A stretch of DNA of 64,000 nt from Dermatophagoides farinae (Eukaryota > Arthropoda > Arachnida > Sarcoptiformes > Pyroglyphidae), in NCBI RefSeq assembly GCF_024713945.1, contig NC_134677.1, positions 1,739,001-1,803,000 of the forward strand, written 5' to 3'. Within the stretch, counting starts at the first letter, position 1. Each line of letters opens with the position of its first letter. Shown piece after piece: positions 3,035 through 57,300 of the stretch. The position numbers and the translations under genes are program-made. Below the pieces are notes generated by a model, which was given only the letters and a program-made list of their open reading frames with translations, searched no databases and was not told the origin of the DNA.

Positions 3035-3328
3035 TCATCCAATTTGAGTTTGAAAACTGTCTGTTTGAACCAAGTCTGGCCGATCAGATGCATTTTGGCC
3101 GGGTGCAAGATTTTCGACGATTTTCCGCCAACTTGGGTCGCATGTAACAGTGATGAACCAATTCGGTTTTCCATATCTCGTTACTATAGTCATTGCGTCT
3201 TGATATGAAGCCACCATTGATCGTGTGGTCCACCTTGATACGTTGATGGCAGAATATATCGTCTTCCATGCTAGTCCTTGTTCTTGATCACCTATCATAT
3301 GATATAGGATACAAGGAATAAACATCAT
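3035..3328 (-). mobile_element. Helitron Rep/helicase N-terminal domain fragment (Helitron_like_N)
   Basis: The minus-strand translation contains ASYQDAMTIVTRYGKPNWFI followed by TVTCDPSWRKIVENL and APGQNASDRPDLV. This is the characteristic block of the Helitron-like N domain (usual form: YQDAMAIV.. FGKPD.FIT.TCNP.W.EI.. L.. GQ.. DRPDL) found in Rep-helicases of eukaryotic rolling-circle transposons. Only about 80 residues survive, with no HUH motif, no helicase and no recognisable 3' hairpin. It is a relic, in the opposite orientation to the neighbouring Tigger pieces and abutting the Tigger C-terminus near 3335. Confidence 0.85.
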
Positions 3329-3335
3329 CCTTGAA

Positions 3336-3720
3336 AACGATCCTGACGTCGAACGTAGAGCTAAAGTTTCTCAAGGAATTAATTCAGCCATTAGCTGTTA
3401 TAAATCACTTAAAAACGAAATAGACAAGAAGGCAAGACAAACAACGTTGGACAATTTTTTTTAAGCCAGGTCCATCCTTACTAGCGAAAAATGATGACGA
3501 CAGTGATCTTCAGGTTACCATTTCTTCATCGTCTTAAGAATAAAACCATTGAAAAAAAAATTATGTATTGTAAAACATATACATATTGTTGGTTTTTGGA
3601 GTATGTTAATATTTTATGTACAAATGTATGTACTTGTTATGTATGTATTTTTATATATATAAACAATATGATATCATTACAATACGTTTGAAAAATAAAA
3701 TTTCCATATCCGTCATAATA
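3336..3720 (+). mobile_element. Tigger/pogo transposase C-terminal fragment and element end
   Basis: From about 3340 the plus strand reads ENDPDVERRAKVSQGINSAI, then SCYKSLKNEIDKKARQTTLD and NFF, followed by a stop caused by one extra T in a T run. In the shifted frame it continues KPGPSLLAKNDDDSDLQVTI and ends in a serine run and stop. The DPDVER...Y..L..E....QTTLDNFF tail is diagnostic for Tigger/Jerky-type transposases. The following AT-rich part (TTATGTATTGTAAAACATA) matches the end of the two deleted copies at 1250-1990, so all three pieces come from one element family. The catalytic core is absent here as well. Confidence 0.8.
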
Positions 3721-39342: not shown

Positions 39343-42300
39343 ACATTCGTGCATATTATTTTTCCCGAAAAAAAGGCATATTTTATTCATTTGTGAATGA
39401 TAAGTTATGTTCAAAAAAAAGAAGAGACAGATAAGTGGAAATAGAAAAAACTATCAAGACAGTTTCAAAATTATATATATATCTGATGATCTGATTTATT
39501 CCATTATTTATTCCATACACATATGACGTAATAGAATAGAAATGAACAGGAAACAAAACAACAACAAAAAATTCTACAAATATACATGAAACGTGTGTAT
39601 TAATTTTAATTAGTCAATGAAATAAAAAAAAAAAAAAATACAACGACAAACGTATTAATTTAGTTTTTTTTTGGTCTACATTGACAATGTTCAACAACGA
39701 AAATGAATGAATGAATGAAAAACCCGCACGTCAAACTATCAATACCTGCATCAATTATAAATTGCATGATGATGATGATGAATACATTTTCAATGTTACT
39801 GTTTGGATACAATGAGAAATGTTTCTATTTTTTTTTTTCGTTTCGTTTCGTTTCATAGGTAAACCATTACCAATATTAAATTGGTATCGTAATGAACAAC
39901 TTATACGGCGACAAATATTTCATATATTGAGTGAAAAAAATCATACATTACAAAGTGAATTACATTTAACACCAATACAAGCCGATGATCATAATTGTTG
40001 GTTCAAGTGCCTATCCAGTAATGATAATCAAACATTTTTAAATGTAAAAATTTTAATGAAAGTTAATAGTAAGTTTATTGATTGTTTTTCTTGCTCAAAT
40101 TATTTAATTTTCGTTGTTTTGTTCATCCACAACAAAGCAAAACCAAAACGTGTTGAAATTACCGCATATCCATCATCATCATCTTCATCATCATCATCAT
40201 CATCATCGAATTTTTACAATAAAAATCAAACAAAAACATCGACATCGATGACGACGAAACCGTCATTTATATCCGGACAGGAAATAATAATACGTTGTCG
40301 ATCATATGGATCAAGACCACCGGCAAATCATAGCTGGTTTATGATGCCTGGCCATCGGCCAATACCAGTTTTAGAGTAAGTTCATTTAGACTAATAATTA
40401 AAAAACAAAAAAAAAAAAAAATTCCACCTTCCAGGAAAACAAACGTAGCGAAAAAAAAGTAATTTTTTTTTTTTTGGTACTCACGAAATGAAATTTTCAA
40501 AAAAAAGAGAGAAAAATATTCAAATTGCTCCAAGAACAAAAAAAAAACAAAAACAAAAACAAAACACAATTCAAAATGAATAAAAAAAAATAAAGTGAGC
40601 TAACTATAGGAAAGAAAGTAAAATGAAAAATCTAAAAGCCCCCGGAAGGTATATATGAATGGGCGAATGGCAGAGATTTTTTTTTGTTTTTGTTTTTGTT
40701 TTCAAACTGTCAAAATTTGCATATACAATTTTTAAATTGAATTAAAATTGATGTGAAAAGTGTTTTTTTTCGTAGTTGTTTCTCTTTCACTTTCTCAATG
40801 ATTTTCACTGGAATTTTTTTTTTTTTGGTTTCAACTAAAAAATGGAGAGACAAGCGACAAACACGTACAAATTTTCTAATTTTTAGTGACAAATTTTCTA
40901 ATTTTTTTTTCTACGAATTTGAAATGAAATTTTTTTTTTCGTTTGTTTCTTCAGGGAAATTCAAATCAAATTCTGAAATTTTTGAATTAAAATGATTTAA
41001 AAATTATTTCAAAATTAAAAAATCGATAAATATAGCTCTCTATTCAATTCATCACACCCACACTTAGACACAGAATAAAGAATCAAAAATAAGCTTGATG
41101 AATTTTTTTTATTCTATTCTCACTTTGTTGATGTAGTTCATTGTAGCGTGAACGACAAACGAAAAAAAAATTCAATTTCAAAGACAATGCCTGAATCGTT
41201 TTTTTTTTGTTCATTCTAGACTCTAGAATCTAGAATACGAATACGAATGAAGAAGAAAAAACAATTGACAACAAACAGACCGAACATAATCGAGTGTGTG
41301 TGTGTGTGTGTGTGCGGAGATACCGAAAACAAACAGATACTGATTTGACTGATGAAAGAATCACCAAGAAATATACAAAAATAAAGATCGATAACAATCT
41401 ATCAATCATCATGATGATTAATATTGAAATATGATATAGAAAGTTGATTTATTCCAATTCAAGTGTGTTTGTCTGGGTGTGTGTGTTATGTAATCAAAAT
41501 TCATACTTTTATAATTACATAAATAGAATCTATGGACAAAACATTACGTCATAATTTGTAATTTATATTCAAAAAATAAAAATAAAAAATGATGGTGAAT
41601 TAATAATCACGTTATTGTGTGTGTGTGAGTGTGTGTGGGTGTGTGTATGAAAAGAAAAGAAGAAATTCTTATAAGATGATTTTGATTCTTTTCAATTGTG
41701 GTTCTCATTCTGGAATCAAAGAACTAAACAAAAAAAAATAGGATTCTAAACATTAAAACACGATCATTCATTCATTTTTTTTCTTTGGATATTACGGGTT
41801 TCATCGGCTCGTTTTGATCTCATTTTGGAGCAATTAAGACATTTTAACATTCCACCTAATTTGTATGCCATTTTATTCAATTACTTTTGTGACAGATGGG
41901 TGGAATTACCCCTTATTGGAACATCGGCCGTGAAACAATGCTCTGGTGGTTGCCCGCAGGGTGGGAAAATTTCCCCGTTATTGTGGAATATATTAATTGA
42001 CAAATTGTTAAAATTGCCTTTGCCACACAATTGTCATCTACAAGCCTATGCGGATGATTGTCTGATTTTTTGTGAACATCCGAACGCTGATAATTGTACT
42101 TGGCTTGTTAATAATTGTTTAGAGATTATCAATGGGGATTAGCCCATGGACTAACTTTTAACCCTTCCAAATCGGAAGCTATGATTATTACCAAAAAGAG
42201 AAAATTTAACATTCCATCGATATTTTTAAACGACCAGGCTATAGGACTTGTTCCTTATATCAAAATACTTGGCTTAGTCGTTGATTCGAAACTCTCTTGG

Positions 42301-45300
42301 AGCCATCATATCGATTATATTTCTTCCAAAGCTACTAAGATTTTCAATATTATTAAAAGAAGATTCGGTTCACTTTGGGGCTTGTCTTTTGATGTACTCC
42401 GCACCATATATTTACAGGCTATTGAACCGATGATCCTATATGCTTGTCCGGTTTGGCATAAACATGGTACAAATATGAAACGATTATTGAGAATACAAAG
42501 GTCATTCGCAATTGGCATGATCCGTGCCTACCGAACCGTCTCTTTGGAAGCCTCATTGATCATAGCAAACATTCCTCCTATTCATTTTAAATTGGATTAC
42601 CTGGTAAAAATGTTTTCTTTAAAAAATAACTCGACCGCTATGGATTGTTATTATAATTTGATCCATATAATCTTTCGGTTACAAATGAAAATGATACTTG
42701 TTTTCAACATCAACATTATTATCATATATACACTGATGGATCCAAATTCGAAAATTATGTTGGTGCTGCGTTTGTTGTTTTTTCAGTCCATGAAAACCGT
42801 ATACCATTTTTGAGAAAAATGTTTCGTCTGGATAATCGTTGTTCAATTTACCAAGCCGAACTTTTGGCTGTTGTTGAGGCTATAAATTGGGTTGTTGATA
42901 ATAATGTTCCTGGCGTTAAAATTATGTCTGATTCTCAAGCTGTATTGTTGTCGATTCAAAAAATCTATTCTTCCAATAACATTAATAACTGAATCGATTA
43001 TTCAGCTAACTGTACAGCATGGAATGAGATTTGGACAACATGCTCTAATGGATCCACTACTAAAAAATTTTTTCCACTGGTAAGCATCAGATCAGGAATC
43101 AATCTGTCTCCCGATTTCATTCTTACCCAATTTCTTACAAACCATGGAAAATTCAACCAGTATTTAAACAGAATGCGAATCAAAGATCAATCGTCATGTT
43201 TCTGTGGTAATCCTTCACAAACATCTTTACATTTAATTTTGGAATGTGATCGTTTTGCAGCACAGAGATGTTTTTTCGCTTGTTACTGTTCTGATATGTC
43301 TAATTCTCTATCCAATATGTTGGATGAAAATATTAGAAAATATTTTTCAAATTTCCTTCTTTCAACAATTTTTTGTTATACTCAAATTTTTTGTAAATCT
43401 TTATCAACTCCTATTTTAAGGTATAGGAGCGTTTTGCTTTTTCTAAATAAATAAATAAATTAAAACACGATCATTCATTCATTTTTTTTCTTATTTTCAT
43501 TGTTTGTTTTTTTTCATTTCCATTTGCTTTAGGCAATATGTGATCGTTACTGGTCGACATCATCATCATCATCATTCACATGGTCGTCAACGTGATAATT
43601 CAAGAAATAAACAACAGCAACGGAATTTAATGAAAAATAAAAGATTTCGTCAGGCAAAATATAACAATCAGAATGATGATGATGCAATAGTGACGGAAAT
43701 TCAACATGATGATTATAACTATGATGATGATGATGAGGCAATAATTATAAACTATGATGATATAATAAACAATAATGGTAGATATCAACTTGACAATTTT
43801 GGTTACGGTAACGGTAACGATAACGATAATGATGATGAAATGATCAAATCAACAACAACAACATTAATAACTGAATCGATTATTCAGCTAACTGTACAGA
43901 CTGAAGATAATGGTAATGATATTATTTGTAATGCTGAAAATTTATTGCTCAAAAATAACAACAATGATAAACAAAGACAACAACAACAACAACAACAAAA
44001 TGTACTTGAAAATACATTCAAATTGGACATTGTTTGTAAGTAAATGGAAATTTTGAAATTTTCAAATTATAACAAAGAAAAAAAAATAACTCAAAAATAA
44101 TTGACTGGTACAAATGTAAATAAACAACAGACAAAATGTTGAAATTTTTAAATTCGATCGAAATAGAGTATGAGAACAAAAAAAAAATCGATACAATCGA
44201 TATATTCATCACAATATTGAAGCGATGAAATAGATGAAATAACAAGTTAACAACTTGGTTTTTTTTCCAGAAGCTTTTTTTTTATTCAAAAAACTTTTCT
44301 CGCCACAAATTCCTGATTGATTTTTTTTTATTTAAAATAAAAAAAAACAAACAAAGTTTCTTCAAATTCTTTACTCTTCGATCAGATGATCTTTTCATCA
44401 CTTGATGAAGAAACGGACAATAGATTTTTACTCGAAGAAAACAAACCAAAAAAAAAAAAAATTTTTCCTTAGTTACACATTTGTTTTCTTCATTTCATTG
44501 TATTTTCATCAACATTCAATTTCCATTAATGGAATTTATTATTATTGAATTCTGCGCATTGTGTACCACATATATGGTTCAAAATGAAAAGAGCAAAATG
44601 ACCAAGAAACCAAAAAGTAAATAGATAGTAAAAGATTTCCAAAAGAAAAAAAAATGTTATCATTCCATTTTGTCATCACCATTGTTTATCGGGTATGTTG
44701 TCTTAAAATGTCAATTTCAACCATTTTCATCCATACAAGATGAAAATGGAACCAAACCAAAAAAAAGGTATTATTATTGTTATATTGAAATACAAACAGC
44801 GAAAGAGAGTGGTGGAGAAAAATGTTCTTAATTCAAATCATTGATGATTTTCATTCAATGGCAAAAAAAAAATCTCTGGAAATCTGATCCACTATCATCA
44901 TGATCATTATCATTATCATCATGATCATCGTAATCATTATTGTTATTATTAGATAACAATAAAACAACTAAAGTAAAGTAAATGGATCGACTTTATTCTC
45001 TGTAAAAAAAAAATGATAAAAAGATTTTTTTTTCTGCTGAATGAAAAAACATGAAATTCAATGCTAAAAGCCAAAATTGTACATCATTGTAGTGTAGTAA
45101 GTAAACATGAACTTTCAAATGAATATATATATGAGTTGAAAACCAAAAATGAAAAGAGAAAAGAAAATTCTTATTCTTCCTGACGATGATGATGATGATG
45201 ATGATGATGGTTTTTGTTTGAAGTTATTTAAATTCAATTATACAATAGATTTACGGTAAGATTTCATTTCCTTTATTGTTGCTGTTGGTTTCCGGGGTTT

Positions 45301-48300
45301 GTTTTTTCCATTCGTCAGGTTCAAACAGAATTAAAATACGTGGAAAAAAAGTCAAAGATTCTATCACCATTGCTCCATCCATCCATCCATCATTATTATC
45401 GGTCTCGTAAAAAAAGTCGAATTTCAAAAAAAAAAAATTTTTCTCATGAAAATGATGATGATGTCCAGTTTCTTTTTCGATTGTCGTCAGTTGTCGTCAG
45501 TTCGGTTTTGTTATTGTTTTTTTTTACCCATCCACCCACCGATCATTTTCAGAGAAAATAAAGTTTAATCCCATTATCATTAATATATTGGCACACAGAC
45601 ACACACACACACACAAAAATGTCTTTCAAACAACAACAACAAATGATAATCATGATGATATCATCATCATCATCATATGAACTGTCAAAATAAAATATTA
45701 AATTCGTGCTCAGAGTATTTAGTAATTCTTTGAAATATATTATTCTTTATTATTATTGTTGTTTTTCAGGCAATTGTAAAAAAAAACATCCGTTGTTGCC
45801 GTTACTGTTGCCATGTTATATCAGTTCATTTCATATTTCCTATTTGTTGATGTTGTTGTTGTTCTACGACCAAAATTAATGACATTGACAATGATGATAA
45901 ATAAAAAAAAAAACAAAATTGACCTAAATACTAGATTCTCGAGGGGAACCTGTGTGTTATGAACGAATCAATTTAATTTTGTCCATGGCCAACAAGAAAA
46001 AAAAGAAGATATTATTTTTAAATCGATTTTGTTGTCGTTTTATATTTTCCAAAAATCCAATCAAATGTACATTTGTGTCCATTTTTTTTTTTGGTTCAAT
46101 ATGATTAAAGAAATATATTTTAGAATCTGAAAAGAAAAAAAAACCTATTCCTGAAATTTTGTCTGTAGTTGCCTGCCTGCCTGCCTGCCTGCCATACGAA
46201 ACAAATAGTAATCGGAGGATATGGATGGATAGAATACAGAATCGGAATAGGAAAAAAAATGTTTCAAAATCATTTTATTGATTTACGGGAAAAAATTGAG
46301 ATAAAATTCATGCAGAAAAATTGTATCAATTTCTTGGAACAACGGTTGTTGTTTCTCATGCATATGTACCATTCCATAATGATGTTGGACCATGAAAAGC
46401 TTTTGGTTGTTGTTTTTTAATATATTCCGAAACTCTTGGCAATGCTTCAATACGTTCATGAAATTTTTTAAGATTTTCAAATTTATCATAAACTTCTGGC
46501 ACTAGTATCTTAAGTTTAGTTAGATATTCATATAGCAAAAAATCAGCATAAGAAATGTTTGCACCGGCAATGAATGGTTGATCGCCAAGAAATTTTGACA
46601 ATAATTCCACTTGTTCAGGTAATGATTTAAGAAATTCTGGTTTCAATTTTTCACAATTTGGATTATATGCAATACGTGCAATAGCCATATTCATATCGAT
46701 AATCTGTTGTTCAGCTAATGATGCACGTATTTCTTCATGTTCATTTTGTCCAATTAATTTTTGTTTACGTGCAATATATCGAATAATGGCCAATGATTGT
46801 GATAATTTTACATTACCATCAATATAATATGGACACTGTATATAGGATGTGAGCAATGAATTAAGAGAGAATAAAAAAACAAAAACCAAAAAAAAAAAAC
46901 AAAGCAAGAACTTACATTTGGAAAATCTAATCCAAGATTATATTTATCATTCAACCATTGTGAACGATCATAATTTGGTGGTGGACCAACAGTATAACGT
47001 TTATCGATGAAATCAACACCGGCATATGTTAATAATAAACGTATGGCTTGACCAAGACCACGTGCATCCCAATAGCCAAGAATTGGTTTTGTTTCGCTCA
47101 TTTTTTTTTCTATTAAAGATTGAAAGATGAATATTTAACCACAAAACAATATATATAATGATGATGGTTTGTAACTTTCAATGTAAATTTATACTGAAAG
47201 AAAAAAAAATTTTTCTACAATCAATCAATGATGACAGTCAATGTCTATGTTGTTGCCAACCACAACAAAATGACCTTGTATTTGTCTCATTGTCGTTTGT
47301 TGAATGAAAAAAAAAAATTTGTCTATTCATTGAATAAAAGTGAGAAAATGCAAATGATAATGATAATAGCATCATCAATAGAAAACATCATTGCAATTGC
47401 AGCACACACACACACACATTGATAATGATAATTTGTTGATAATGGCCTTGACTGAAAATTATCATTCAAATAAAAACAATACCAAAAATTGAGTTTTTAT
47501 GATACTCAAATCTTATCAATGATATTTGGTTCGAGACTTTTTCATCATCAAAAAAAAAAAAAAAAACAAGTGCAACCACCCAAATTTTGGTTTTTTTGGT
47601 TTTTCAAGTACGATTTTTCATTTACTGAAATTGATTTTGTTTTTGATTTTGAAAAAAAAACTGAGAAAAAAAATTAATAAATTCAATTTAAATCAACCAA
47701 CACACATTCTGTGGATGAAAAAAAAAATTCCAAAAAGAATCGTCTTATATATATATAAAATCTTTTAAGTGCTTAATCTATTTTTCGTTCGATGAGCACA
47801 TTAGTGGATAAAACTTGCATTGGTTACTTTGACATATGTCAAACAAACAATCATTCTGGACGATTCTGGAATAATCCTGAAATAAAAAAAATAAACAAAC
47901 AAACAAACAAGATTTCTGATCTGATTTCTGTTATTTAGAAAAATGAAAAAAAAAGATAATTCTTCTCACCCATTTACATCTCGAGAGAGAGAATGGTTTG
48001 AAAAAAATTAATATTGATACATTTTTTCTATAATAAGTAGTAGCAGCAGTAGTAGCAGCAGCAGTAATTGTAGAAGAAAATCCAATAACCAACAAAAAAA
48101 AAGAAAAGAAATCAAATCCGAAGCAAATAATCTCGTTTCCCGATGAAAGAAAGAAAGAAAGAAAAAAAAATTCCGTTCCAAAATGGATTGCAATGCTTTG
48201 ATGATTTGATATCTTTGGTCCCTTTTTTTTCATCTGGGGCTAAGAATTTATTTTAGGAAAAGAATTTTTTTTTAGCAAAAAAAAAACGAAAAGATTCTGA

Positions 48301-51300
48301 TGACAACTTAATCTTTTTCCAAAAAAAACCAACCAAACCAACCAACCACCATTATTCTTATAATCGTGTGTGTGTGTGTGTGTTTAGTTGGTTTGTTTAT
48401 CCCTATTTATGCTTTAATAATAATAATAAAAATGAAAACATTCCACATATCTATTTTTTTTGTGACCTTAATCGATACACAATGGTGTGGGAGAAATTCC
48501 AAATAAAAAAAAAACAACCACACAAAAACAGTCGAACAATGTGAAAAGAAATTGAAAAAAAAACAACAACAAAGTTTTGATTTAGCTTTCTGCTGATTGA
48601 AATTGATCGATCGGAATGATGATGAGGATGATGATGATGATGATTCGTCGTAGATTTTTTTTGTTGTTGTGTGCAAACATTTATCAAGAAAAAGACATTG
48701 AAAAAAATTTATTCTACAATTGGGTGTTTATTCTATTTGTTTTTTGTTTGAAAATTTTTCCAAGAATTTTGGTCACCACTTTTAGCTACAAAGTTTTTAT
48801 TATTCCCCAATAAAACTTCATTACGTAATTTAAAATAATAGGAGAAGAATGAAAAAAAAATCAAAGATAATTCCTAATTCATACATACAAGCCGGTTTTC
48901 CATTCGAGATAAAAATCAATCAATCAAACATTATCGAATCAATGATTTTTCTTTTGTTTTGTTGTTGTTGTTGTTATTGAAATTGAATGATTTTCTGTTT
49001 CATTAATTAATTCATTAATAATATCGATACCGGGAATGATATCGATTTTTTTTTCTGGTCGTCGTCGTCGTCGCCGTCGTCGTAGATAATGAAAAGAGGA
49101 AACATTTTCACAATGTATACACCATCATCGGCATTCAATAATCATCGACACAAATATCGATCGATGTCGATTCAAAAATGTACATCCATGATAATCGAAA
49201 ATGAATATCATCATCGCATAATGGACGGAAAATTTCTCATTCTCCAAAAAAAAAAACAGAAAAAAATCGGCCACTTTTTTTCTAGTTACCATTGCAAACA
49301 TTCGACTTTCGACAAATTAAATTCATTTAATTAATGAAATTAATTAATAAAGCTTTCGATTTTCTTCCTGCTGCTGCTGCTGCTGCTGTTGTTGTTGTTG
49401 TTGTTTATTATTCGAATGAAACACACGAATCATGCAGAATATCAGAAATTGGCCATACTGTATTGTTGTTGTTGTTGTTGTTACAAATTAATTAACCATG
49501 TAACATGATTAATTCTTTCTAAAGAAAAACAAAAAAACAACAACAACACAGTGTTCGAACATAGTTCGAATAATTTTTAGAGTATTTAACCAGTTTACTA
49601 TGGCCATTATTGATGTTTATTATTTCTATTTATTTTTTTCTTGTTTGTATATTTATTTTGACTATTTTTTTGGGATTTATCAAGTAAATCAAGTGTCCAT
49701 CACACACACACACCACATCTTTGAAACAATGTCTGATAATGATAATGGTGAAACTGCTAATGAAAGTCAATCAACAGGTAAAGAATCATCAACTGCAACT
49801 GAACCGAATTCAACAGAAAGTGAATATATTAAAGCATCGAGAAAATTTCAAGAAGAAGAAGATGAACAGAGAAAAATTTTTGATACAAAATTAGCTGAAA
49901 AACGTACAATGTTAATGCAATCAGTTATGGGTGAAGATGTATCGAAAATTAAGGCACGTTGTCAGGCTGAATCATTTCGTCAGAAGAAAAATATTGATGA
50001 AGAAGTGGAAAAATTATCCAAATCAATGCGTGATCAATTTGTATTACAAGCCGAACAGATGCGTACAGAATTACGTGGTAAAATTGAAAAAATGATTGAA
50101 AATAAAAAACAAAAATTAGAACAAGATAAACAACGTTTATCATCAATGTTGGATAGTGAATTGGAAGCAAAACGTAAATTAATGGAAAATGAAACTGAAC
50201 GTTTGAAACATGTGACAAATATTGCACAATCCGATATTGATCATCGTGATAGAGTGAAAAAAATAATGGTTGATTATAAAAATTTTCCTGGAACAAAAAC
50301 ATTGGTAGATGAATTTGGATTGAAACGTTATCAAGTTGTGATCAATAAACAATCAATATGGGCAGGAAAAACCTGTATCATTTATCGTGGCCAATTTCAG
50401 CAACAATCTTGTTATGTAAAAATTGTTGTTCTTAGTGATCGTAGTGTACGATATAAACAACATATTCCTGAATCGACAAAAATTCGACAATTTCTATGTC
50501 GAACAAATGAACAACAACAACAGCTGCAACATGAAGCATTTGTACGAGTGTATGATGTATTTATAACTGATCAAAAAATCTATACATTTATGGATGATTG
50601 TGATTCACAGAATCTAATGTTACGTGCACGTAAAGGTTTTCTTTCATTGGATGAATTACGTAAACATATGCGTAAAATATTATCATGTTTAGAATATATG
50701 CATCAACGTGCATTTGCACATCTTAAAATACGTGGTGAAAGTATTGTATTTGATAATAATAACAATGTAAAATTGGTTGGTTTTGGCAATGCAGCCGCTT
50801 ATTTTGATTCGAATACGGAGAAATTTTTAAAATTACCACAATTAGAATCAAAACATCGGCTATTGGATAATCATTTTCCACCAGAAGTATTTGTCGATTC
50901 ATTTGATCCACAATTGGCTGATGTATATTCATTCGGTTTATTGATCTATATGATGGCCAATTTTATAAGTAATAAAAAATTTACACGTGAAGATTGGAAA
51001 CAATGGACAATTATAAAATTGGATTCAATTACCGATGAAAAGACTAGAGAATTGGTTGAAACAACAACAATGTTGGATATAGAAAAACGTTGTAAACTAT
51101 TTGATATTCGAAATTTAGCATATTTTTCTCAATGAATTTTTGTTATTTTTTTTTTGCAATTTTGAAATTGAATGAATTTTTGTATTTTGTGTGTGTGTAG
51201 TGTAGTGCTTGATGATTTATGAAAATAAAAATTTTATTGAGAAAAAATTTTTTTATTTAATTTTTTTTCACTGTAGTTGCACCAAAAGTAACACTGCAAC

Positions 51301-54300
51301 AGATTGAAGATGAATTTGGCAATAAAAATCAATTAACATGGAAATTAAAAATAACCGATAATGGTGGTGGTTATGCTATACGTGGCAGACAATTACAATT
51401 ATATTGTAATATATCTGCAAATCCATTGGTATTGGCAACGGATATTCGTTGGTATAAAGATTCAATGTTAATCACTGATGATGATCGAATAATTGTCAAT
51501 AATAAAACAAACAACAGCGGTGATGGTAAGTTTGAATTTTATTAGAAAAATGTGCATTATGGTAGGAAAAAAAAGAGTTGAATAAGTAAAATATATGTGG
51601 ATATGCATGAATGGCTAAAAATGATACAAAGAAATGATAGATAGATAGAGTCCGGATAATATTATTCCATTACCGGACACTATTTTTATTTATTTGGAAA
51701 ATAATATTCAGCGATTTCCGGATTCATTATATATTCTACAAATACCGTATTAATCATATGTATTCGTTTTAATTTTTTTTTCGCTTTCACTCCCACTCTC
51801 TATCCAATATTTGTTTTCATTATTTAGAAATAGTGACAACATCATCAACATCATCATCATCGAATAACAGAACACCAGACGGTAATAATGGTGGTGCTGG
51901 TGGTGGTGGTGGATACATAAAATTTACACATAACGGTACAAGATTATTGATTACAAAAGTGACCGATGAATGGCAAGGATTCTATCAATGTATTGCACAA
52001 AATTCATTGGGCACCGGTTTTAGTAATCAATTTAAGGTCCAAATTCTATGTAAGTATAATGAATCTTTTTTTTTACAAATTCATTATTAATATGGTTGTT
52101 GGTTGATATATTCAAAATATTTCTCTATGGAAAACAATTTTTCATTGCCATTGCCCATATATCATCAACATTATGAACCAAAAAACTAAAACTAGCCAGT
52201 CAGGGTGGCACCAAAAAAAACCAGTGCATACACAACAAAAACGTTGTTGATTGATTTATTATTATTATTAATTAATTAATTCGTCGTTATTTTGTTTGTT
52301 GTTGTTGTTGAACATTCACACATGCACACATGCACACACACACATGTATATTAGCCTGATTTATTAATAAGTAATTATTAATTGGATTATTTATATATTT
52401 CGGCTGCTGCCAGATTTTTGTTTCCAACGTTTAGTCGTCGTCGTCGTCGTCGCTGTTGTTGTTGTTGTTGTTATTGTGATTGATCGTTTGTGATTGTGTT
52501 ATTTTATTTTCGTTTTTCGTTGTTGATTAAATCCAGATGATATAGATATATTAAGAGAAAAGTTAATTATTTATTCATCCACTCTTTCTCTCTCTTTCTC
52601 TCTCTGGTGGCTCTTTAATGCAATGGATCAAACTAATCACTATCACTAGTATCACTTGACATTGTAGATGTGGCCGATGATCCTGAACTATAACTCGATA
52701 ATTGTTGTTGTTGTTGTTGCTGTTGTTGATAAAATGGTGGAAATGGTTGTTGTTGATAAAAGGGTGGAAATTGTTGTTGTTGTTGTTGTTGTTTATCCAT
52801 AAACATTGGTGGATACATTGATTTTCCTTTCATTAACATTGGCATCATATATGGTGGTTGTTGTTGTTGTTGTTTTTGTTGAAATGGTGATTTTGGTTGA
52901 TGCTTCATTTTCATCATCATTGGTGAACGTTGAAATTTTTTCAATTTTACTTTTACTTTCATACGTTTTTTCATTTTCATTCGTTTTTTTATTGGCATTC
53001 GCATCATCATTGCTGGTGATATTTGTTGTTCAAGAATTTGTTTTCCACCACCACCACCTTTTTTATCACCAACATTCATCATCATCATCATAATTGTTTT
53101 AAGATTCTGTTTGACTATTTGTCCTGTAATATTATCTAGTTTTTGTTTTTGTTGTGAATTCTGTTGCTGCCCTTGTAATGATGGTGGTGATTGATGTTCT
53201 GGTGCAGTTTGTTGTTGTTGTTGTTGTTGTTGCTGTTGTTTAGGTGGATCAATCATAATTTTTGGTTCACAAGTTTTTAATTTTGGAATATTTTTATCCA
53301 TTGGTGCATCAATCAACCACGGATGTTGTACTAGATCAACCATACGTATACGTATTAATGGATTTGGCTGAAATATTTGTGTCATCAAATCAATAAGACG
53401 ATCATCTGGTTTGAATGACATTTTATCTGTAAATTGAAATTGGCCACTAAGCTGTTGTTGTAGCATTACATCTTGATCCATTGAAAATGGAAATTGTCCT
53501 TGATTTATCATACAATATAATACAACGCCTAATGCCCAAACATCTGCTTGTAAAACATCGAATATAATTTTTGTGATTAAAAATAGATGAATTTCTGGCG
53601 CCATATATGGTATTGTACCACAATAATTTGGTGCATTCACTACACGGCCTTCTTTTTGTATGACAACAATGCTTAGACCAAAATCCGTAACTAAACAGTT
53701 ATATTTTTTATCCAAAAGAATATTTTCCAATTTAATATCACGATGTGCAATATTTCTTCGATGTAAATATTCAATTGCTGATGTAATCTGTTTGAACATT
53801 TTTCTTGCCTGTTTTTCTTTCATTCCTGTTTCTAATTTTTTTCTTACCAAATTCCATAAATCTGATTTATCGGCAAATTGCATAAATATATAGACATGTG
53901 CACTTTTTGATGATTGTAATATAAAATGTTTATAAACACGTATAATATGTTTATGTTCTACTGAATGTAAAATGAATAATTCTTTTTTAATCAATAGCTG
54001 ATCTTTACGATTTGTACTGACAGTCATTACTTTACATGCAACTTTTTGTTTAGTTTTTAAATCGATTGCTTTATAAACAGTACCGAAACCACCTTTGCCG
54101 ATTTGTTTTTCTAATCGATAACCAATACGTTCAATTATTTTTTCAGTATCTGAACCATCCGATTTACATGATAATATCGGTGTTACATCCGTTGTCGGTA
54201 TTCGTGATATAGTGACCTGAATTTTTGATGATTTATGTTTTTTTGATTTTTCTTTTTCTTTTTCTTTCTGATGTTTTCGTTTTTCTTTTGATCGTTTACG

Positions 54301-57300
54301 TTTTTTACCAATTTTACCTGTAGTCGTTGATTCTGGTGTTTGTTGTTCCTGTTGTTGTTCTTGTTGTTGTTGTTCTTGTAATTGTTCATCATCCATTTGT
54401 GGTTCACCATTTTCATCAGCCATATAATTACTTTCATCATATTGTTCATTTGCGGGATTTCTTCGGCCAATTTTAAAGCACTTACATCCCATAACCAATT
54501 GTGTTTCAACCGTCATATATGTAGCCACGGTTGTGTACATTCAAAGATTTTTGCCATTTTTCTTGGACATTTTTTATATCACAATAAAAAATTGTTTCGA
54601 ACTTTTGTTTTTTATTCTATAGAAAAAAAATTGAATTAGAAAACAACAACAACAACAACAATTTCCTTTTGGAACAAATGATTGTTTTTTCTCTTTTGAT
54701 TTTGTAAACGTAAAATTATTATTTCTAGCCAACAATGATCCAATTTCTTGTGGACCACACACACACACACACACACATACACGCCCACTCATTGTCCAAT
54801 ATTAATGACGATGATCATTTCTTGGTTCTTGTTTGAATAAAAAAAATTTTGTTTCTCACTTTATGTTAATTCACTTTGTTGTTGTCTTCAATGTCGATTT
54901 TTTTTCTTTCTTTATGGGGCACTTTATAAACAACACCATGATCATCATGATGATCATGATGATCATTATTCTATGAACCAGCAATAAATGATGCGTTTTT
55001 TTCTGTAAAGAAAACACTGAAAAGAAATTCAACCGAGTTCATTAATCACAATACAAACACACACACACAGATATAGTCCAAGAAAAAAAGTTCAGTTCAG
55101 TTCAGTTGATTCATTCATTCATTCATTTTTTTTCACTTCAAGTTCAGCCCATATTTTCTTTTACTTTTTTTTCTCGTTTGTTTGTTTCTTTTCTTTTGGT
55201 ATTCATGAGTTCTGTGTGTGTGTGTGTGTATTTTGATTTATTATTCGGAAAAGGATCACATACAAACACACGAAAAAAAGTTGTTGTTGTTGTTGTTATT
55301 ATTATTATTGACCATATTGCCCGCGTTAATTGGATATGGGGGTAGAAATGTACCATCAACTTTTAGCCAAAAAAAAAAAAAACATGGGCCACTCATAAAT
55401 AATGGTGAACGAAAAAAAAGTCAGCAACAAGAACAAAAAAAAATGTAATTCTTTCATTCATGAAAAAAAAATCGTGTTCATTGCCATTGTTGGATCAATC
55501 TTAAACCAATGGCTAAAATAATAATAAATTGGTTTACTATGTGTCGACACATGATCATCGTGAAGGCGGTGTGGTAGCAGAAAAAAAATAAAGAAAACAT
55601 CATCATCAAACAAACAAAAAAATATAAATAAATAAATCTGTGAAAATTTAGAAACTAAACCACCGCCACCACCACCACCAGTAGCAACAACAACAACAAA
55701 AAACATTTTTGAATTTCAAACTACAACAACAACAACAACAAAAGCAGTAGTAATATATCTTATTTTTTGGATTTTTTCTACTTTATTTATTCATAATCTC
55801 AAAAAAAACTGAACAAAAGAAATGAGAGAAAAAAGCCATTATCTCCATATACAATGGGGGATGGGTTGGTGGGATTCGATCAATATTTTTTTTCCCCCCA
55901 AAAAAGAAAAGAATCTTCATTTTCATTTCTTTTGGTGGTAACACATGAACATGGCCATCACAATGTGTAAAACTGAATTGAATGAACTTTGAATCGGTTC
56001 TCGGGGAAAAAAATGGTTTTAAATTTTAATTAGAAAAAATGTTTGTTTGGATCATTTTATTGTTGAACATCAGACAAACACACGCACACACACACACACA
56101 TGAAATGATAAAATTCACTAGGGAACCGAATAACGATGAAAAAAAACCCGGAATCATCATCAGATAACTTAGTAACAACAAGATAACTTTTTTGACTTGA
56201 TTATATTTGACTAATTGACTTTTGTACATTTATATCCATATAATGTTCTATAAACAAACAAATCATCGATATTATCGATTTTACAATCTTACAATCATTT
56301 TCTTTTCATTTGTAACTATCTTGAATGTAATAAAATGATATTAGAATTACGAATTTTTTTTTGTTTCGTTTATTTAAAAAAAAATATAGATTACAAATGA
56401 ATATGAATAGAATCCAGAATGGATTTATTATCAGAATGGATTTCTCCAGTGGGACATATATTCATGTATTCATAATAATCAACAATGATAAGAAAAAAAC
56501 AAAACAAAACATTATTCTCAATATTCACTTTGTTTTTTTTTTACTTTGCCATTCTAAATCGAATGAAAAAAAACTCATATCATTCATATATATAGTAGTA
56601 TTCTTGAAAATAAAGGCATACTTTCATTCAAGAATTTTTCAAGAATCTTGGATAAAATTTGAAGAAAAAAAAATTAAATAAATAGACCAGGAACCGAAAA
56701 AAAAATTGAAGATGATCTTTATAACAAATTGTTTGTGAGAAAGAAAAAATAGAGAAAAACACAGACTCTGAAAACTTTATCTCTATGGAGCAATTTATCT
56801 ATTCTATTTTTTTTCGTGTAATTTTGCTCAATTTTTGAACCAAATTCAAAGCCAGTGTGTGAGAGGGTGAAAAAAACTATTGAAAATTATTCAAATATGA
56901 CTTGGTTTTGTTGTTGTTGTTGTCGTCATAAAATGAATATATATATTCTCCACATTATGTATTTTAAAAGATTTCCAAATATTTTTCAATGAAAATTGAT
57001 TGAAAAAACCGCTTCGTTAATAGCTTTCTTTTATTTATTTATCTGTCGGGATCCTGGTTCAGATTTTGTTGTTGTTGTTGTTGATATGGTTGACATTTGA
57101 AATAAATATGTGAAAATTTATCAACAAAACAAAACAAAAACAACTGGCTATTAGCCATGGAAAATATGTCTGTGTGTGTGTGTGAGTGTGTTTGAATTTT
57201 TTACCACATTCCAAAATGGCCATATTAATTGAAACTCATTTAAATTTAAATTTAAATTTAATAATCAGAATGATTATGAAATGTTGAAAAAACCGGAATA

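Follow-up and report, generated by a model that had tools for sequence, protein, structure and literature searches.

How did a piece of a host coding exon come to lie inside a LINE that occupies the neighboring intron of the same gene? At this locus of Dermatophagoides farinae, a 40-bp block is found twice, once within the LINE and once in the next exon downstream, and the direction, extent and time of copying all have to be established. We addressed these points in the window, i.e., the whole 64-kb stretch of DNA that was analyzed (C1:1739001-1803000 of a 62.4-Mb genome in 22 contigs), which sits within a 9.17-Mb contig.

Results

The LINE was found in an intron of an immunoglobulin (Ig)-domain gene, on the same strand as the gene. 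The exon upstream of it ends at 40375 and is followed by GTAAGT, and the downstream exon (43533-44035, + strand) starts after TTTAG, with the AG acceptor before 43533, and ends before GTAAGT, with the GT donor at 44036; these signals were placed by eye. Other exons of the host gene gave V-set, C2-set_2, and Ig_3 matches above the cut-offs. A profile search with the downstream exon itself returned no Pfam family match, and a search of solved structures with the joined host exons returned 57 distinct sequences at E≤1, the best at 0.0062, with both of the alignments shown entering a histidine stretch. Between exons of the Ig gene we also observed a glutathione S-transferase gene (46356-47134, − strand) and two single-frame protein kinase reading frames (49513-51135, + strand, and 52633-54540, − strand). 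Elsewhere in the window, a Helitron_like_N match was obtained at 3038-3370 (− strand; 2.3e-17), and the wider stretch around it was matched elsewhere in the genome only piecewise.

The LINE copy spans 41786-43460 (+ strand; its 3' boundary with the duplication can be placed only to within 2 bp), is 5'-truncated compared to its siblings L038 and L039, and carries AAAT repeats at its 3' end. Its flanks are formed by a target-site duplication of 34 bp, identical at the left (41752-41785) and at the right (43459-43492; both + strand). The left duplication ends in TTTCTT, 6 bp that belong to the LINE as well, amounting to a 6-bp microhomology with the target at the 5' junction. The copy matched RVT_1 (6.4e-8) and RNase_H, the latter over profile positions 4-80 of 141. 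In sibling L038, an open reading frame of 1,135 amino acids matched RVT_1 (4.7e-39), Exo_endo_phos_2 (5.5e-19), and RNase_H (6.6e-14, profile positions 4-140). By its domains, together with its target-site duplication, truncation and tail, the element is a non-LTR retrotransposon of an endonuclease/RT/RNase H family that was inserted by target-primed reverse transcription (TPRT). The family is small, with at least seven other places, several of them fragments, and at least two short matches found using three element pieces. The window copy is young: compared with both L038 and L039 it has a single private substitution in 1,582 columns, in agreement with the fairly recent event that the initial annotation had put forward as one of two readings of the identity.

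Some relatives of this copy show rearrangements of their own. The LINE copy in L041 (C1:4692 kb) is interrupted by 131 bp that carry terminal inverted repeats, CAGTGATTCCCAACC (by eye), and are accompanied by an 8-bp duplication, CTCTAATG; we take this insertion to resemble a small hAT-type element. In L040 (C6:2901643-2901656), which belongs to the same LINE, ~470 bp are deleted; the short insert that accompanies this deletion reads AACAT (by eye) and echoes a motif found slightly further upstream, at a distance of a few bases. L042 (C7:3101.2-3101.6 kb) is a LINE fragment of ~416 bp with 15 substitutions and 0 indels compared to L039; it has neither the 5' nor the 3' end of the LINE, and its left edge follows a TTTCTTTTAG tract like a splice acceptor. 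Moreover, LINE reverse transcriptase frames that are ~30% identical to the window LINE family crowd near the ends of large contigs (e.g., C1:9141213-9163300 of 9.17 Mb, C2:8346052-8377522 of 8.39 Mb, C6:5216799-5234995 of 5.24 Mb, and C7:12050-41777), most of them in open frames of ~800 to 2,900 amino acids, a distribution such as subtelomeric or telomeric arrays would give.

The block at 42978-43017 in the LINE was identical over 40 of 40 positions to 43860-43899 (+ strand) in the downstream exon, as originally proposed; the exact identity extends 0 bp further leftward and stops after 43017/43899. At up to 3 mismatches, a pattern search of the 64-kb window returned the 40-mer at these two places only, and shuffled sequences (n = 100) gave an expectation of 0.00. 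When the genome was searched with 201 bp around the site, the exon was, among the matches listed, the sole other place for the stretch (44 bp at 98%). Exact matches to the 40-mer were absent from the viral collection and from the bacterial/archaeal collection. As an RNA hairpin the 40-mer is nothing special (z = −1.4; 17 of 200 shuffles were equally stable). A match by chance or through overlapping simple sequence might be suspected, since AAC repeats are abundant in the exon just upstream of the block; however, the block is not simple sequence, and with no match expected from the shuffles this explanation was ruled out, its probability being practically nil. The direction of copying was assessed by the comparison that the initial annotation had called for, an alignment of LINE relatives across the site. 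All four copies spanning it (L038, L039, L040, and L041) have uninterrupted LINE sequence there, and the exon block is found in none of them. Since the siblings are free of the block, the exon is, on this alignment evidence, the donor and the LINE the recipient, as had been claimed. The opposite transfer, of 40 bp from the LINE into the gene with the exon as the recipient, found no support; it was rejected on the same 4/4 siblings and is extremely unlikely. Indeed, the block in the exon is in frame, lies between the AG and GT splice signals, and encodes the strand leading to the second, Ig-type cysteine, LITESIIQLTVQTEDNGNDIICNAEN (by eye).

The breakpoints were defined by an exact walk of the window LINE copy along L039. 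At the left breakpoint, the sole base common to the LINE and the exon is the final A (42978), inside the near-match CAAyA. The 33 bp that follow (42979-43011, + strand; indel 5) correspond to exon 43861-43893 and replace 5 bp of LINE; among all the sequence fetched, the 33-mer was held only by the window and by loci overlapping it. Next come 6 bp common to exon and LINE, GTACAG (43012-43017), after which CAT continues in the LINE. In the siblings, GTACAGCAT is located exactly 5 bp past the left breakpoint, and in the window copy it forms a LINE island (43012-43020, + strand) between indels 5 and 6. A junction match as long as GTACAG was obtained with 12 of 5,000 shuffles of the removed stretch and with 0 of 614 other stretches of the window. 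Directly after the island begins a 190-bp deletion (indel 6, junction 43020/43021, + strand), which has 1 bp of microhomology and removes most of the distal RNase H region.

Thus, the description of a 40-bp foreign block in the initial annotation stands as far as identity is concerned, but GTACAG and the first A are also LINE sequence. In the likelier of two parses of these junctions, 5 bp of LINE would have given way to about 33 copied bp, with closure through 6 bp of microhomology, and most of the loss of distal RNase H would be due to the separate 190-bp deletion. The block was correctly placed at the interruption of RNase H (profile positions 4-80 compared to 4-140 in L038), although the loss lies mostly in the adjacent deletion, and microhomology was indeed used, on one side (6 bp at right, 1 bp at left). 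The less likely parse takes the site as one event, a deletion of ~203 bp filled with a piece of the exon. Two bases are then unaccounted for, except if the ancestor carried the base found in L042, whose right flank has GCA and would fit this parse with 1 bp of microhomology; L042 is more diverged (~3 to 4%). This parse, in which 39 to 41 bp would fill the deletion, was set aside, since the bases after the exon match are explained by the LINE's own GTACAGCAT.

The patch and the 190-bp deletion are accompanied by six further indels (all + strand), and a single lesion patched by 40 bp is not supported. They consist of 4 bp in place of the siblings' 9 bp (indel 1, 41800-41803), a 4-bp deletion causing a frameshift (indel 2, junction 42130/42131), 3 bp for 24 bp (indel 3, 42650-42652), 2 bp for 12 bp (indel 4, 42667-42668), 3 bp for 17 bp (indel 7, 43364-43366), and 5 bp for 17 bp (indel 8, 43381-43385). 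Microhomology at the seven indels other than the patch amounts to 1 bp at the 190-bp deletion and 0 bp at the 4-bp deletion; the remaining five carry inserts. For these five short inserts (2 to 5 bases), no template better than that of random inserts was found, either within the LINE or within the host sequence, which was covered for 3 kb to each side. Three of the seven islands retained between indels are ≤14 bp long (P = 0.007 under random placement).

The exact walk along L039 gives a tally of 3 substitutions and 8 indels for the window copy. As a control, we pooled 10 of the 24 listed LINE pairs that do not include the window copy (≥300 columns, <6% substitution); of the others, 13 were redundant with a pooled pair or identical, and L048-L050 (53 substitutions, 4 indels) was more diverged. 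The pooled pairs had 181 substitutions and 12 indels (Fisher 2.7e-7 versus the window copy), and the four same-family pairs among them had 24 substitutions and 3 indels (Fisher 4e-4), both values being indicative since some copies recur among the pooled pairs (L039 belongs to three of them, and L041 and L056 to two each). Indels of the controls were counted by clustering of BLAST gaps, a procedure that gives 13 rather than 8 for the window copy versus L039. Very close single pairs are not always substitution-rich, as seen with the pooled pair L039-L041 (1 substitution, 1 indel) and the left-out pair L038-L041 (2 substitutions, 3 indels, one of them a small transposon). For LINE pairs close to contig ends, selection may act against indels. 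A comparable burst of indels was observed in none of the 24 other listed pairs. The eight scars of the window copy probably arose together, at insertion or in repair soon after.

Discussion

With moderate confidence, we favor a switch of template onto the adjacent exon that was guided by microhomology. It would have been part of a burst that took place during insertion or shortly afterward, with either the LINE reverse transcriptase (RT) or the host polymerase theta as the enzyme. The tract that was copied, the orientation it kept, the 6-bp microhomology, and the prompt return to LINE sequence all suggest that a polymerase briefly strayed onto the exon. In this scheme, the LINE would have entered the intron by ordinary TPRT, leaving the 5' truncation, the 34-bp duplication, and the AAAT-type tail, and at insertion or very soon after, the growing strand would have changed template several times. 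One switch would have gone to the host exon, where the donor copy lies 882 bp downstream. Read in the direction of first-strand cDNA, the strand would have departed from the LINE at GTACAG, its six bases annealing to the exon, copied ~33 nt in the same orientation, and returned to the LINE 5 nt beyond the point of departure, guided by at most one base (the A within the CAAyA near-match). Other jumps would have produced the seven additional indels, five of them with 2 to 5 inserted bases. The polymerase may have been the LINE RT or the host polymerase theta acting on an integration intermediate, and the exon template may have been DNA or a transcript. In vitro, human LINE-1 ORF2p is reported to extend primers of 5 to 10 nt, somewhat less efficiently at 5 and 6 nt, to add untemplated bases, and to switch templates, according to the available part of the study (PMC10830420), and template jumping was also described in TPRT assays in the accessible portion of another report (PMC7617806).

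An origin at or near insertion is favored because the scars are many relative to substitutions: 8 indels against 1 private substitution lean toward dating all scars to insertion, a ratio from a single copy, from which we infer one burst. The 6-bp match is on the right, the side expected for the 3' end of a growing minus strand; end joining gives the same geometry, and a detour onto the exon would suit it just as well, one broken end copying exon sequence until it can pair with the other end through a microhomology. Some observations count against the favored reading. Simple template slippage would be expected to favor microhomology, yet the 190-bp and 4-bp deletions have 1 and 0 bp of it, and the five remaining indels carry inserts instead. 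Moreover, none of the 24 other pairs yet supports a general process acting at insertion, and the five short inserts have no better-than-random template in LINE or host.

Breaks that occurred later, in the already inserted LINE, are a possible but distinctly less probable origin. Each double-strand break would have been joined by polymerase theta, one of them using the exon as the template and the others leaving 0 to 5 inserted bases. The scars indeed resemble the products of theta, with small deletions, small inserts, and a single templated insert whose closure used 6 bp of microhomology, and the template of the 33-bp insert is identifiable (exon 43861-43893), with microhomology at both switch points, albeit of only 1 bp at the left. 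A polymerase theta gene is present in the genome: a polymerase-A gene has polymerase theta as its best solved relative (E = 7.2e-72). A DNA-ligase family search of the genome gave 3 matches at 2 places; Pfam Ku had no match, with a control matching in 1 of 14 genomes, and neither did Ku_N, with 0 of 14 controls, numbers too weak to speak of absence. Sibling L040 has its own ~470-bp deletion with a short insert, and in the available part of a study on a bdelloid rotifer, internal deletions of Hebe elements were attributed to end joining (PMC2861651). However, five to eight breaks would have had to fall within 1.9 kb while just one private substitution accumulated, and the 24 other LINE pairs show no comparable excess of indels. 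Patchwork inserts are generally shorter than 25 bp, occasionally with more than 20 consecutive bases, and their templates flank the break, as far as the accessible text of a review goes (PMC12426944), whereas the exon template lies 882 bp away and the short inserts have no significant template in the flanks. Repair of a break from a nearby template, as suggested in the initial annotation, retains the copying from the exon and the one-sided microhomology but not the single 40-bp patch. Less probable still is a patchwork made in one insertion from LINE RNA that was already fragmented, e.g., by siRNA slicing. The RT would have jumped between fragments, once onto a fragment of the host sense transcript, and 0 to 5 bases would have been added at the gaps between RNA fragments. 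This idea was prompted by house dust mites, which are described as having no piRNAs and as using siRNAs against transposons in the part of the report available (PMC5805368). A fault of assembly or consensus at a repeated element is quite unlikely. A 40-bp local direct repeat and a repeated LINE are spots where assemblers can fail, but the junctions look biological, with a 6-bp microhomology, an intact 34-bp duplication, and nearly no substitutions; indels such as 9>4 or 17>3 are not homopolymer errors, and the locus lies inside the 9.17-Mb contig.

Resolved to single bases, the locus offers a natural example of a coding exon of the host serving as the template for a retroelement in the neighboring intron, with intact siblings as a reference. 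If all eight scars date from insertion, such copies are a genomic record of LINE RTs leaving and regaining their template in animals; scars of later date would instead make the locus a record of break repair at unusual density. Should the RNA have been fragmented beforehand, a new LINE insertion would record both RNA slicing and local host transcription. A literature search found no case of a host exon supplying an internal patch to a LINE, which does not imply that none is in print.

Several known systems resemble the locus in part. Templated insertions are regarded as a signature of polymerase theta and may have a patchwork structure, as stated in the accessible part of a review (PMC12426944), and in flies, theta-dependent junction insertions are often templated from flanking sequence, according to the available text (PMC2895639). 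The window LINE is similar to theta end joining in its small deletions with short inserts, its templated insert, its closure on a 6-bp microhomology, and the theta gene in the genome, and it is unlike it in a template that is 882 bp away and 33 bp long and in the many scars within one young element. Template switching of a LINE RT in TPRT is similar in the use of short primers, in untemplated bases, and in switching, as described for human ORF2p in vitro (PMC10830420, in the part available), and the polarity of the 6-nt microhomology in the window fits first-strand synthesis; in contrast, the excursion seen here is internal, goes onto a neighboring host exon, and returns to the same template 5 nt on. 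According to its accessible part, a human/chimpanzee survey assigned internal deletions, together with template switches, to a class that it left uncharacterized (PMC2912911). Human templated sequence insertion polymorphisms (TSIPs) of class 2, as far as the report is available (PMC5110952), are patches at breaks for which RNA was suggested as a template. They likewise consist of a patch from elsewhere with junction microhomology or a small deletion and an intact donor, but their donors are distant, whereas the donor in the window is the next exon in cis; the patch, moreover, is only 33 bp long. Internal deletions have similarly inactivated LINE copies among the Hebe non-LTR elements of Adineta vaga, copy O, for example, having four of them; most Hebe deletions have microhomologies of 5 to 14 bp, and a host-exon insert was not seen in the portion of that report available (PMC2861651). 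The window copy also differs in being 5'-truncated and intronic. The window case combines features of class 2 TSIPs and of Hebe copies, with the next exon in cis as the donor.
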